Source: Armatimonadetes bacterium Uphvl-Ar2 (GTDB lineage: Bacteria; Armatimonadota; Fimbriimonadia; Fimbriimonadales; Fimbriimonadaceae). From it: 64,000 nucleotides of DNA. The DNA lies in contig CP021424.1 of NCBI GenBank assembly GCA_002162095.1, forward strand, positions 124,001-188,000. The letters are read 5' to 3'. A program made the position numbers and the translations under genes. Positions 4,971 to 30,536 of this stretch are shown here, one piece after another (position 1 is the stretch's first letter; every line of letters begins with the position of its first letter). The notes below the pieces were generated by a model. That model was not told the origin of the DNA. It searched no databases and saw nothing but the letters and a program-made list of their open reading frames with translations.

Positions 4971-5198
4971 AAATGGATGTCCTTACTTGTAGCGGCCTTG
5001 CCGCTAGTACCTTTACTTTGACACAGCAGCCTCCGTTGCAACTCAAGAGTTTTTTGAGAGCGGGACGGATGGTGGGACTGATTTCGAGAACTTTTCGGAG
5101 ACGGGAAAAATCCGGCGAGTGAGTTGCGTAAGAACTGATGTCCAAGGTGGACTGCGTACCGCAGGTAAGCCGCAAGACGACAAGCACAAGACATTCGG

Positions 5199-5224
5199 CC
5201 GGCCAGTAGGTCGGCCATTTTTTT
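5199..5224 (+). terminator. Terminator-like hairpin in the leader of mccB (possible attenuator)
   Basis: Arms ggccggcc and ggtcggcc (one mismatch, loop agta) are followed directly by a run of seven T on the plus strand, ending 34 nt before the ATG at 5259. The upstream gene is divergent, so no plus-strand gene in this window ends here. Transcription reaching it would have to start inside the 4971-5198 interval. No known riboswitch was recognised in that interval. It also contains a small agcgg/ccgct hairpin near 4990 and ctcaa/ttgag near 5042-5056. Confidence 0.55.
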
Positions 5225-5258
5225 GCCTGAGGCTCGGCTCGGTAAGATGGTCTTGGCC

Positions 5259-6881
5259 ATGGAGATCCTCCACTCGAAGACCGACATCCACTCCCCCGAG
5301 GCACGCGCCGACCGGGCCGAAATGCATCGCCTGCGCGAAGAACTGCGCGAGCGAGCGGCGGTAGTGAGCGCGGGAGGCGGCGCGGCCGCCGTGGAGAAGC
5401 ACAAATCGCGCGGCAAGCTGCTGGCCCGCGAGCGGATTGACGGCCTGTTGGATCCGGGTTCGCCATTCCTTGAAGTTTCTCCCTTCGCCGCCTGGGACAT
5501 GTACGACGGGGGTGCACCGGCGGCGGGCGTTGTGGCCGGCGTGGGGTGCGTGCAGGGCCGCTTGGCCATGATTTTGGCCAATGACGCCACGGTGAAGGGC
5601 GGCACCTACTTCCCCATCACGGTCAAAAAGCACCTGCGAGCGCAGGAGATCGCCATGGAGAACCGCCTGCCGTGCGTGTACCTGGTGGACTCCGGCGGCG
5701 CGTTCTTGCCGCTGCAGGCCGAGGTCTTCCCGGACCGTGACCACTTCGGGCGCATTTTCTACAACCAGGCCAACCTGAGCGCGCGCGGCATCCCCCAGAT
5801 TGCCGCCGTGATGGGCTCTTGCACCGCCGGGGGCGCCTATGTCCCCGCTATGAGCGACGAGACCGTGATCGTGAAGGAGCAAGGCACCATCTTTTTGGGT
5901 GGCCCGCCGCTGGTGAAGGCCGCCACGGGCGAAGAAGTGACGGCCGAAGAGCTCGGGGGTGGGGATGTTCACACCCGGCTGAGCGGGGTGGCCGACCACC
6001 TGGCCGAAGACGACGAGCACGCCCTCGAGATCGTCCGGTCGCTGTTCGAATCCTTGCCGCCGGGGCAGATTCCGGAAGGGGCCTTTGCCCGCCCGGCTCC
6101 GGCCCCGGTGGAAGAGCCGCTCTACCCCATCGAGGACGTGGACGCCTTGGTGCCGAGCGATACCAAGCGCCCCTTCCCGATGCGCGACCTGCTGGCCCAC
6201 CTGCTGGATGGATCGCAGATGCACGAGTTCAAGCCGCGCTTTGGCACCACGCTCATCTGCGCATTCGCCCGGATTGAAGGGCACATGGTGGGCATCATCG
6301 CCAACGACGGGATTCTGTTCAGCGAGTCGGCCCAGAAGGGCGCGCACTTCATCGAGCTTTGCCAGCAGCGCGGGGTGCCGCTGGTGTTCATCCAGAACAT
6401 CACGGGCTTTATGGTGGGCAAGCGGTACGAAAACGAAGGCATAGCCCGGCACGGGGCCAAGCTGGTGACGGCGGTTTCTACGGCCACGGTGCCCAAGATC
6501 ACGCTCATTGTGGGCGGGAGCTACGGCGCGGGCAATTACGGCATGTGCGGGCGGGCGTATCAGCCCCGGTTCCTCTTCATGTGGCCCAACGCCAAGATCA
6601 GCGTGATGGGCGGCGAGCAGGCCAGCAACGTGCTTTTGACGGTGAAGATGGACCAGCTGGCGGCGAAGGGCGTGACGATGTCGCAGGAAGAGCAGGACGC
6701 CTTCCGCAACCCGATCCGCGAGAAGTACGAAGCGGAGGCCAACGCCTACTACTCCAGTGCGCGGCTGTGGGACGACGGCATCATTGACCCGCATGACACC
6801 CGCCGGGTGCTGGGTTTGGCACTCGAAATCTGCCGCAACGCCCCAGTGGAACCGGCCGGCTTTAGCCTGTACCGGATGTAA
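5259..6881 (+). CDS. mccB: Acyl-CoA carboxylase carboxyltransferase, methylcrotonyl-CoA carboxylase beta type
   Basis: This 540-aa biotin-dependent carboxyltransferase transfers CO2 from biotin to an acyl-CoA. The C-terminal half carries [16 protein letters not shown] and [16 protein letters not shown], characteristic of the 3-methylcrotonyl-CoA carboxylase beta branch (leucine catabolism). The first half holds the GGAFLP and [12 protein letters not shown] acyl-CoA/oxyanion regions. The start was set at ATG 5259 (MEILHSK), which matches the usual N-terminus; ATG 5247 is in frame, and a TTG at 5223 would lie in the T tract of the hairpin. TAAGAT (5243-5248) is a possible -10. No alpha (biotin carboxylase) subunit is adjacent. 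The 3' end overlaps the converging beta-lactamase-fold gene by 20 bp. Confidence 0.9.
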
Positions 6882-28331: not shown

Positions 28332-28922
28332 CTAGCGAAACGTGATTTCGGCTTCCGTAAGGGGTTCCAGCAAGCGGCGCAGTTCAATCTCGGCCTGAGT
28401 GTGCGCAGCCTCGGCGATGCCTGCCGTTCGGGCCTTCTCAATGGCGTCGGCTCCGGCCACGCGCTCGGCGTCCAGGGTCACGTTGGCATCCTTCCACAGA
28501 AATCCGGGGCGCACCCATTCCGCACGGGCTTGCACCCCGGCAAGTTCAACACTGGTCGGGGGAAGAGTGACGGTGAACCCTTTCTCCGGGTCCCCGCTCA
28601 CCTTCACCATCCGTAGATCCACACCGGCCCGAACTTGCGCACGATAAGTGATCAGGGCATCGTTGCGCGTGGTGGTGTGGACGAGTGACGCGACGCCCGG
28701 CACCGCGTTCCAGCCGTCTTCGGCCTCCTTCGCGGTGGTGTGCCGGAGCACGCCGTTGTAGTTGTGCTGCACGGTTTGCAATCGGCCCATAGTTTGCACC
28801 TGGGTCAGCAATGCCTCCGCCGTCACCGGGGCCTCGCCCTGGGGGGTCAGCAGTTGCACGCCGGCCAGAATGGCCATCACGGCCGCTCCGGCTCCGATGC
28901 TGATGCGTGTGCGCTTCGTCAC
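28332..28922 (-). CDS. DUF4230-like membrane-anchored protein
   Basis: This 196-aa protein starts at GTG 28922. One N-terminal helix (about residues 8-26) is followed by an extracytoplasmic domain. The order VQTMGRLQTVQ / ALITYRAQVRAGVDLRMVKV / GFTVTLPPTSVELAGVQ resembles DUF4230 proteins, where a YxGxVxAGIDL-like segment is followed by an LPxPxI strand. The function of that family is unknown. It is divergent from glnA and lies 109 nt upstream of the acyl-CoA dehydrogenase gene, which has its own promoter. Confidence 0.65.
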   Translation of the reverse strand: MTKRTRISIGAGAAVMAILAGVQLLTPQGEAPVTAEALLTQVQTMGRLQTVQHNYNGVLRHTTAKEAEDGWNAVPGVASLVHTTTRNDALITYRAQVRAGVDLRMVKVSGDPEKGFTVTLPPTSVELAGVQARAEWVRPGFLWKDANVTLDAERVAGADAIEKARTAGIAEAAHTQAEIELRRLLEPLTEAEITFR

Positions 28923-29020
28923 ATTCAGTTAGACGACTTTTCCCCACTCATTCGAGCCCGAGTCCCAATTCTGTGCCCGGAACCCGGCAATTTTGGCAAT
29001 ACACCCGGTAGGATGAATGT

Positions 29021-29080
29021 CCATCGGGACGGACCGATGGGCAAGGGCGCCCGACCTTTTTTAAGGTAGGGCGCTTTTTT
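29021..29080 (+). terminator. Hairpin plus rho-independent terminator in the glnA leader (possible attenuator)
   Basis: A 7-bp hairpin ccatcgg/ccgatgg (29021-29040) is followed by a terminator with arms gcgcccgacctt and aaggtagggcgc (11 of 12 paired, 4-nt loop) and TTTTTT at 29075-29080. It ends 34 nt before the glnA ATG. The gene on the left is divergent, so the only plus-strand transcript it can stop is one starting in the 28923-29020 leader. The known cyanobacterial glutamine riboswitch consensus was not recognised. Confidence 0.6.
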
Positions 29081-29114
29081 CTTTGGAGTCCTTGTCTCGG
29101 GAGATCCTATCCTC

Positions 29115-30536
29115 ATGAGCGAAATCAAGACCCCTCAGCAAGCCCTTCAGTATCTGAGCGATCAGCATGCTGAATTCGTGGACATTCGGTTTACCGACCC
29201 CTTCGGAGCCTGGCAGCACTTCACCGTCCCCGTTCATGTGTTCAATGAGGAAACATTTGAGAACGGGTTCGCGTTTGATGGTTCGAGCGTGCGTGGGTTC
29301 CAGTCCATTGACCAGTCGGACATGCTCATGATCCCGGATCCGTCTTCGGTGTTCATGGATCCGTTCACCGAGCACGCCACAGCCGTAATGGTGTGCAACA
29401 TCGAGGACCCGATCACCCGCGAGCGCTACAGCCGCGACCCGCGCTACGTGGCCGTGAAGGCCGAGCAGTACCTGAAGAGCACGGGCATCGGGGACATCGT
29501 TTTCTTCGGCCCCGAGGCTGAGTTCTTCGTCTTTGACCAGCTTGCCTACGGTTACGGCCCGGATGGCGGCTTCTTTAGCGTGGATGGAGAGGAAGCCCCG
29601 TGGAACAGCGGCAACGAAGACGCCCTGGGCTACACGATGCGCACCAAGGGTGGCTACTGCCCCTGCTCGCCGAGCGACAAGCTCCGCGACCTGCGCAGCA
29701 CGATGGTGACCCTGCTGGAAGACGTGGGCATCACCACCGAAATCCATCACCACGAGGTGGGCGTGCCGGGCCAGTGCGAGATTGGGATCAAGTTCGGCCA
29801 ACTGCTGGAAATGGCGGACAAGCTAATGCGCTTCAAGTACGTCATCAAGAATGCGGCCGCCGCCGAGGGCATGGTGGCCACGTTTATGCCGAAGCCGATC
29901 TTTGGCGACAACGGCTCGGGGATGCACTGCCACCAGAGCATCTGGAAGAACGGCGAGAACACGTTCTACGATGAGGCCGGTTACGCCGGACTGAGCGACA
30001 CCGCCCGCTGGTACATCGGCGGCCTGCTGAAGCACGCGCCTTCCCTGCTCGCCTTCACCAACCCGACCACCAACTCGTACCGACGACTGGTGCCGGGCTA
30101 CGAAGCTCCGATCAACCTGATCTACTCGGCCCGAAACCGCTCGGCGTGTGTGCGCATCCCGATGTTCAGCAAGAGCCCGAAGGCGAAGCGCATCGAGTTC
30201 CGCGCGCCGGACCCGATGGCGAACCCGTACCTGGCCTTCTCCGCGATGATGATGGCCGGCCTCGACGGGATTCAGAACCGCATCGAGCCGCCCGCCCCGC
30301 TGGACAAGGACCTCTACGAACTGCCCCGCGAGGAGCGCGCGAACATCCAGCAAACGCCGGGTTCGCTGCAAGCGGTGCTGGAGAACCTGCAGAACGACCA
30401 CGCCTACCTGCTCAAGGGCGACGTGTTCACGCCGGACCTCATTGAGGCGTACATCAGCTACAAGATGAAGCACGAAGTGGAGGCGATCGCCCTGCGGCCG
30501 CACCCGTACGAGTTCTTCCTCTACAGCGACAACTAA
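29115..30536 (+). CDS. glnA: Glutamine synthetase type I
   Basis: This 473-aa enzyme condenses glutamate and ammonia with ATP. FAFDGSSVRGFQSIDQSDM opens the catalytic part, then GPEAEFFVFD (metal-binding Glu), GSGMHCHQSIWK, the YKRLVPG-like YRRLVPGYEAPINLIYSARNRSA, and FRAPDPMANPYLAF. Tyr401 in DLYELPREE is the adenylylation site of the GSI-beta subgroup, so post-translational control by an adenylyltransferase is likely. The leader contains a terminator-like hairpin, suggesting additional transcriptional attenuation. It is a single-gene unit with its own terminator. Confidence 0.96.
   Translation: MSEIKTPQQALQYLSDQHAEFVDIRFTDPFGAWQHFTVPVHVFNEETFENGFAFDGSSVRGFQSIDQSDMLMIPDPSSVFMDPFTEHATAVMVCNIEDPITRERYSRDPRYVAVKAEQYLKSTGIGDIVFFGPEAEFFVFDQLAYGYGPDGGFFSVDGEEAPWNSGNEDALGYTMRTKGGYCPCSPSDKLRDLRSTMVTLLEDVGITTEIHHHEVGVPGQCEIGIKFGQLLEMADKLMRFKYVIKNAAAAEGMVATFMPKPIFGDNGSGMHCHQSIWKNGENTFYDEAGYAGLSDTARWYIGGLLKHAPSLLAFTNPTTNSYRRLVPGYEAPINLIYSARNRSACVRIPMFSKSPKAKRIEFRAPDPMANPYLAFSAMMMAGLDGIQNRIEPPAPLDKDLYELPREERANIQQTPGSLQAVLENLQNDHAYLLKGDVFTPDLIEAYISYKMKHEVEAIALRPHPYEFFLYSDN

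Follow-up and report, generated by a model that had tools for sequence, protein, structure and literature searches.

How glnA is controlled in Armatimonadetes bacterium Uphvl-Ar2 is a question raised by the short interval ahead of the gene, in which two hairpins and a run of six T residues are crowded together. Within the window, meaning the whole 64,000-nucleotide stretch of DNA that was analysed, the gene, its upstream neighbour and the elements of its leader are arranged as follows.

28332..28922, minus strand: DUF4230 protein gene, the upstream neighbour of glnA (Pfam PF14014)
29009..29014, plus strand: candidate -10 element TAGGAT of the glnA promoter, proposed from the hexamer (4/6 match)
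29018..29043, plus strand: hairpin P1, 10 bp, TGTCCATCGG-GACGGA-CCGATGGGCA, hexaloop at 29028-29033 (fold z -4.74)
29039..29052, plus strand: hairpin P2, GGGC[AAGGGC]GCCC, with an A1/G4 hexaloop, a candidate antiterminator and ANTAR-binding hairpin (-7.6 kcal/mol; motif GCAANGRNGC)
29045..29080, plus strand: intrinsic terminator with T6 at 29075-29080 (-21.2 kcal/mol; z -4.57)
29098..29105, plus strand: candidate ribosome-binding site CGGGAGAT, from a reading of the sequence
29115..30536, plus strand: glnA, type I glutamate--ammonia ligase, 473 aa (Pfam PF00120/PF03951; NCBIfam TIGR00653)

The glnA product scores 644.8 bits against NCBIfam TIGR00653 (cut-off 429), and the closest named entries among the best 80 glnA records are from Fimbriimonadaceae/Armatimonadetes, in line with the phylum suggested in the initial annotation. 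Because the DUF4230 gene lies on the minus strand, the interval before glnA is divergent. The glnA leader is structured beyond chance: the fold of 29015-29082 reaches -39.9 kcal/mol (z -6.76), a value equalled or bettered by none of 200 dinucleotide shuffles, and the slightly longer stretch 29010-29082 gives z -5.28. The initial annotation, which had described two hairpins and a T6 tract in a divergent interval 34 nt before the glnA ATG, is thereby confirmed by both sequence and fold, and its view of the leader as an attenuator distinct from the glutamine riboswitch is supported as well: an Rfam search of the window returned no family for the leader at gathering score. A permissive Rfam scan of the same leader likewise yielded neither a glutamine riboswitch nor any other usable family.

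The likely beginning of the transcript can be placed with some care. A sigma-70 consensus scan found no full promoter before glnA, and a good -35 element was not seen. TAGGAT stands 6 nt ahead of the 7-bp P1 stem in both this genome and a second one of its genus (G001), a third genome of the genus (G002) has TATACT at the equivalent position, and relatives often show a -10-like hexamer ahead of their first leader hairpin. From the hexamer and this layout, transcription would start just upstream of P1.

The core of the leader is the relation between P2 and the terminator. The terminator stem pairs GCGCCC (29047-29052) with GGGCGC (29069-29074) and continues inward as ACCTT/AAGGT, and the 3' arm of P2 (29049-29052) falls within its 5' arm, so that the two structures are mutually exclusive and the terminator cannot form while P2 is held. 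The computed energies, -39.3 kcal/mol for P1 with the terminator versus -14.2 kcal/mol for a 5-bp P1 with P2, favour the former, suggesting that termination is the default and that P2 would need a bound protein to hold it. P2 has the stem of at least 3 bp and the hexaloop with A and G at positions 1 and 4 that characterise ANTAR targets, and in the eut leaders, according to the available text of PMC3369931, a shared 13-nt element, AGCAANGRRGCUY, has a corresponding overlap with the terminator. The P2 decamer motif is common by itself (8 occurrences in the window vs 10.6 expected), and therefore its position on the terminator had to be tested. Because the second hairpin carries an ANTAR hexaloop overlapping a terminator, the sensor is probably a protein, namely a two-component ANTAR regulator, rather than the RNA itself, a point that the initial annotation did not anticipate.

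Both proteins expected of such a system are encoded in the genome. The single ANTAR protein (PF03861; 79 bits vs a cut-off of 27.3) is an orphan response regulator with a receiver and an ANTAR domain, located at ~1.243 Mb (G000:C1), ~1.09 Mb from glnA. Among solved structures it is closest to 1s8n (189.6 bits), mycobacterial PdtaR (Rv1626), the partner of PdtaS, and to EutV, 6wsh (145.3 bits). Eleven EutV residues contact RNA, with Tyr164 stacking on the flipped G4, as described in the part of PMC8934654 that we draw on. In our alignment eight of the eleven are identical in the regulator (Arg142, Lys143, Lys149, Glu160, Tyr164, Met172, Asn173 and Arg175), and three are changed (Lys147 to Arg, Arg168 to Gln and Arg177 to Ser). 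The only HisKA_2 kinase, with GAF, HisKA_2 and HATPase domains, is encoded at ~52 kb of the same contig, well apart from the regulator gene. ANTAR proteins were found in 57 of the 61 genomes searched as relatives, in 114 of 151 genomes of the phylum and in none of 14 control genomes, and HisKA_2 in 52/61 relatives and 2/14 controls. The two near-complete genomes that lack ANTAR (G030 and G042) also lack HisKA_2, and a further genome (G039) has ANTAR without HisKA_2.

Whether the arrangement recurs was examined in the glnA leaders of other genomes. The strict core GCAANGRNGC occurs in 24 of 47 stretches of at most 330 nt upstream of glnA in order-level relatives, where about one would be expected from the shuffle rate in the window. 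Sixty further leaders from across the phylum brought the total to 107, and these were scanned for hexaloop hairpins in which the 3' arm shares bases with a terminator's 5' arm. An A1/G4 hexaloop on a terminator was found in 20 of the 93 leaders that come from genomes with ANTAR (mean 0.8 and at most 2 over 15 rounds of shuffling) and in 0/13 from ANTAR-less genomes (shuffle 0.13), a difference that is not decisive by itself with only 13 negatives. One of those 13 (G184) was counted as ANTAR-less because it was not among the ANTAR-positive genomes of the phylum search, and one leader from a genome 68 per cent complete (G034) was excluded from the split. Terminators as such were present in 48/93 ANTAR-positive leaders (shuffle mean 18.2) and in 4/13 ANTAR-less ones (2.6). 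The 20 positive leaders span seven families, although three come from the same genus as the present genome and several form close pairs. An earlier version of the scan, which chose a wrong terminator in the window, had given 13/107 (shuffle mean 1.1); as the scan was widened after that result, the count of 20/93 is partly tuned. In a repeat on other loci the unchanged scan was applied to the best 80 glnA records: the A1/G4-terminator overlap was found in 0/76 leaders outside the phylum and in two of the four from records titled Fimbriimonadaceae, Armatimonadetes or Chthonomonadia. Among the 76 outside loci, one from an uncultured bacterium (L317) has an R1/G4 hexaloop on its terminator and closely resembles a Chthonomonadia leader (L245).

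The signature is far from universal, being absent from 73 of the 93 ANTAR-positive leaders, and 45 of the 93 gave no terminator in the scan. In family f2 (L035-L045), two hexaloop hairpins lie ~40 nt apart in the glnA leader and no U tract follows, and a TTGACA/TATAAT promoter is seen in some of these leaders; ANTAR control may operate in this family without an intrinsic terminator. In some of the remaining ANTAR-positive leaders that lack the signature, nothing recognisable was found. Seven genomes from the family of the present genome (L084-L090) encode ANTAR and a different, GS-like protein, with just ~34-39 per cent identity to the glnA product over the matched stretch, and no strict hexaloop motif was found upstream of its gene.

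Covariation, which the initial annotation had proposed as a check, was counted in f2 and in the genus of the present genome, where it is thin. Only P1 of f2 has more than one pair changed on both sides: three such pairs, with 95.8 per cent of cells paired, reached by 0/500 shuffles, while the f2 P2 pairs never vary. In the present genus a single terminator pair is changed on both sides across three genomes, a value reached by 159/500 shuffles. A MAFFT alignment of P1, linker and P2 from 11 leaders misplaced P1 on account of the variable linkers, and so no covariance model was built.

Other possible targets were sought in the same genomes. The ammonium transporter gene amtB was rejected as a second target, since only 16 of 61 genomes have it and the present one does not; of the 16 amtB loci examined, two have the strict motif close to where the open frame begins, and in one of these two it is upstream. 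The transporter (PF00909) is absent from the whole genus, and the 16 genomes that carry it are all in the same family. In the present genome a pattern of P2 followed by T5 gave five matches vs one in the control. Of the four matches away from glnA, three fall within long ORFs on the matched strand; at the fourth (L099) no ORF of 80 aa covers the site on that strand. With a relaxed pattern the matches were numerous, and in most genomes their number was close to that of the control. A two-hexaloop pattern matched three glnA leaders (G015, G028 and G033) among many other sites, and in the present genome its six matches vs two in the control included none at glnA. In another genome (G017:C8:32012-32105), four overlapping two-hexaloop matches with a 21-nt spacing belong to a tandem repeat. 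Its unit is based on GCAATGGAGC, a decamer that is also that of an ANTAR hexaloop hairpin.

P1 is the less orthodox half of the leader. Against the ANTAR rule, the stem of at least 3 bp and G4 are present and A1 is absent, the loop GACGGA having G at position 1. Its outer pairs use bases of the P2 5' arm (29039-29042), so that the full stems overlap, and a linker of 3 nt is obtained from the coordinates only when both stems are taken as 3 bp. The P1 stem is identical in three genomes of the genus (G000, G001 and G002) and hence provides no evidence from covariation; the loop in G002 is AGGAAA, and this genome offers an alternative hairpin, TCC[ATCGGA]GGA, with A1/G4 and a linker of 7. In the available texts, the linker of dual-hexaloop targets is 2-25 nt in PMC8164766, the methods of which allow one point variation in the hexaloops, and 5-12 nt in the eut leaders of PMC3369931, where a 3-nt linker lowered induction. 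Among 23 R1/G4 hits examined, ten from other genera show a P1 that is also R1/G4, separated from P2 by a linker of 7-12 nt, with 8 nt in five of those ten (e.g. G098, G150 and G161), in agreement with the eut range given in PMC3369931. As read from its sequence, P1 in the window is a departure from the ANTAR rule, with its G1 loop and nearly no linker. The loop would be tolerable in principle, since EutV, in the portion of PMC8934654 at hand, makes its sole base-specific contact with G4 and can bind a single hexaloop. The glnA leader suggests that the first hairpin of an ANTAR target may be a long one merged with P2.

The genomes show directly the structures of the leader, that P2 and the terminator exclude each other, that the motif recurs among relatives and that both proteins are encoded. 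On this basis we propose ANTAR-controlled attenuation of transcription in the glnA leader, in which a kinase and a receiver-ANTAR regulator would relieve the terminator, and we give this reading a probability of roughly three in four. Counting against it are the atypical P1, the many ANTAR-positive leaders without the signature, the seven genomes with ANTAR and a different GS, the thin covariation in the genus, the loss of EutV Arg168 and Arg177, the unlinked kinase and regulator genes and the genome with ANTAR and no HisKA_2. RNA polymerase would start just upstream of P1 and, by default, the terminator at 29045-29080 would form and transcription would stop before glnA. The GAF-HisKA_2 kinase, presumably activated by low nitrogen, would phosphorylate the orphan regulator, which as a dimer would bind the P1 hexaloop and then P2 on the nascent RNA, by analogy with EutV. 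The P2 so held would take the 5' arm of the terminator, block it and allow glnA to be transcribed. Nitrogen limitation is suggested as the signal by the nature of the target gene and by the precedent of NitR, as far as PMC6316151 describes it.

The overlap of P1 and P2 also invites a bolder reading, in which P1 would belong to the switch and mask the bases of the P2 5' arm. P1 may, speculatively, also block the antiterminator; the leader in this genus would then be a three-state switch, with P1 (29018-29043) acting through 29039-29042 as an anti-antiterminator, and the ANTAR dimer would have to open it first if P2 is to prevent the terminator from forming; more broadly, one PdtaS/PdtaR-like pair with glnA as its main target would be a dedicated nitrogen regulator of the Armatimonadota. 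We regard this extended proposal as tentative and on balance doubtful.

Several other explanations have to be set against ANTAR-controlled attenuation. An undescribed riboswitch, sensing glutamine, 2-oxoglutarate or ammonium and driving the terminator directly, would suit a structured 5' leader with a terminator on a biosynthetic gene, the more so as binding of the regulator is itself deduced; it is nonetheless unlikely, given the Rfam results described above, the simplicity of P1, a hairpin with no evident aptamer, and the fact that leaders of different families have no common core beyond short hexaloops, the recurring bases being those of ANTAR hexaloops. It is also conceivable that the features act at the DNA level, the repeat CCATCGG-N6-CCGATGG at the start site being a repressor operator and the terminator merely insulating glnA from stray upstream transcription. 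In its favour, all three genomes of the genus share the same repeat, directly downstream of the -10-like box. Against it, other families have a hairpin at a comparable position with an unrelated sequence, and the N6-spaced repeat does not recur in the genome, where the one other match has a 7-nt spacer. The upstream gene is moreover divergent, and with only 34 nt between T6 and the ATG a promoter could hardly be accommodated downstream of the terminator. This account is judged quite improbable.

A constitutively leaky terminator with no regulator, to which P2 would owe its resemblance by chance, draws on the abundance of the decamer alone (8 in the window vs 10.6 expected), yet its placement on the arm of a terminator is seen in seven families, at a rate far higher than in shuffles, and was not found in the 76 leaders from outside the phylum, which makes this very improbable. 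Hardly any credence attaches to ribosome-mediated attenuation through a leader peptide running from ATG 29013-29015 to TAG 29067-29069 (MNVHRDGPMGKGARPFLR): such a frame exists, as the tail of ORF 28740-29069, but it has no glutamine codons, its ATG overlaps the candidate -10 hexamer, and it is absent at the equivalent place in G002.

A second leader in the window had been said to have the same layout as glnA.

5197-5224, before the carboxyltransferase ORF at 5247-6881 (plus strand): terminator GGCCGGCC-AGTA-GGTCGGCC, a perfect stem (5197-5216) followed by T7

The ORF encodes an mccB/mmdA-like carboxyltransferase, its leader is divergent, and the terminator with T7 is kept ahead of the gene in both genomes of the same genus. 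The likeness holds for the terminator in a divergent leader and stops there, as the ANTAR hexaloop signature was not found in this leader, which is a candidate attenuator.

Among known systems, control at the 5' leader of glnA is exercised in cyanobacteria by the glutamine riboswitch (glnA RNA). The likeness ends with the location, for the covariance models of the glutamine riboswitch (glnA RNA and downstream-peptide RNA) in Rfam left the present leader unmatched, and there is no common aptamer. The initial claim of a distinct system stands with respect to this riboswitch, but ANTAR control of glutamine synthetase was already on record elsewhere (in the available texts of PMC6316151 and PMC3369936). 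With PdtaS-PdtaR of mycobacteria the present system has in common the closest solved relative of its regulator and an unlinked kinase with GAF, HisKA_2 and HATPase domains; it differs in that a terminator mechanism is explicit in the glnA leader. To our knowledge, the targets of mycobacterial PdtaR do not include this leader. A probable job can be assigned here to an orphan PdtaR-like regulator.

EutW is a HisKA_2-type kinase, and the eut system of Enterococcus faecalis resembles the present one in this respect. It is also similar in its receiver-ANTAR regulator EutV (PMC8934654, as available) and in an A1/G4 P2 overlapping the terminator 5' arm (the eut leaders of PMC3369931, likewise). It is unlike it in that the target here is glnA, that P1 is long, abuts P2 and has a loop starting with G, and that the kinase and regulator genes are unlinked.

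In the literature searched, no description of nitrogen-assimilation control in Armatimonadota was found; a search for ANTAR with Armatimonadetes/Armatimonadota gave, in the texts as available, matches on microbial communities or inoculants and no report of ANTAR leader control, and Fimbriimonas was not in the best matches listed. The survey in PMC3369936, in the part available, predicted ANTAR leaders beside GS genes in Actinobacteria, Bacteroidetes, Firmicutes and Proteobacteria, and the present leader would carry ANTAR antitermination to a phylum absent from those named there. The nearest precedent is NitR of Clostridium saccharobutylicum, which according to the available text of PMC6316151 controls GS/GOGAT genes by ANTAR antitermination, with induction on nitrogen limitation. 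The two systems would have in common an ANTAR protein, antitermination, a glutamine synthetase target and induction on nitrogen limitation, all but the first being predicted here; they differ in phylum and in that the present regulator gene does not lie beside glnA. Control of glutamine synthetase by ANTAR, known in Clostridium, would thus be extended to a new and little-studied phylum, in the form of a testable circuit of one kinase, one RNA-binding regulator and one leader in a genome without amtB.
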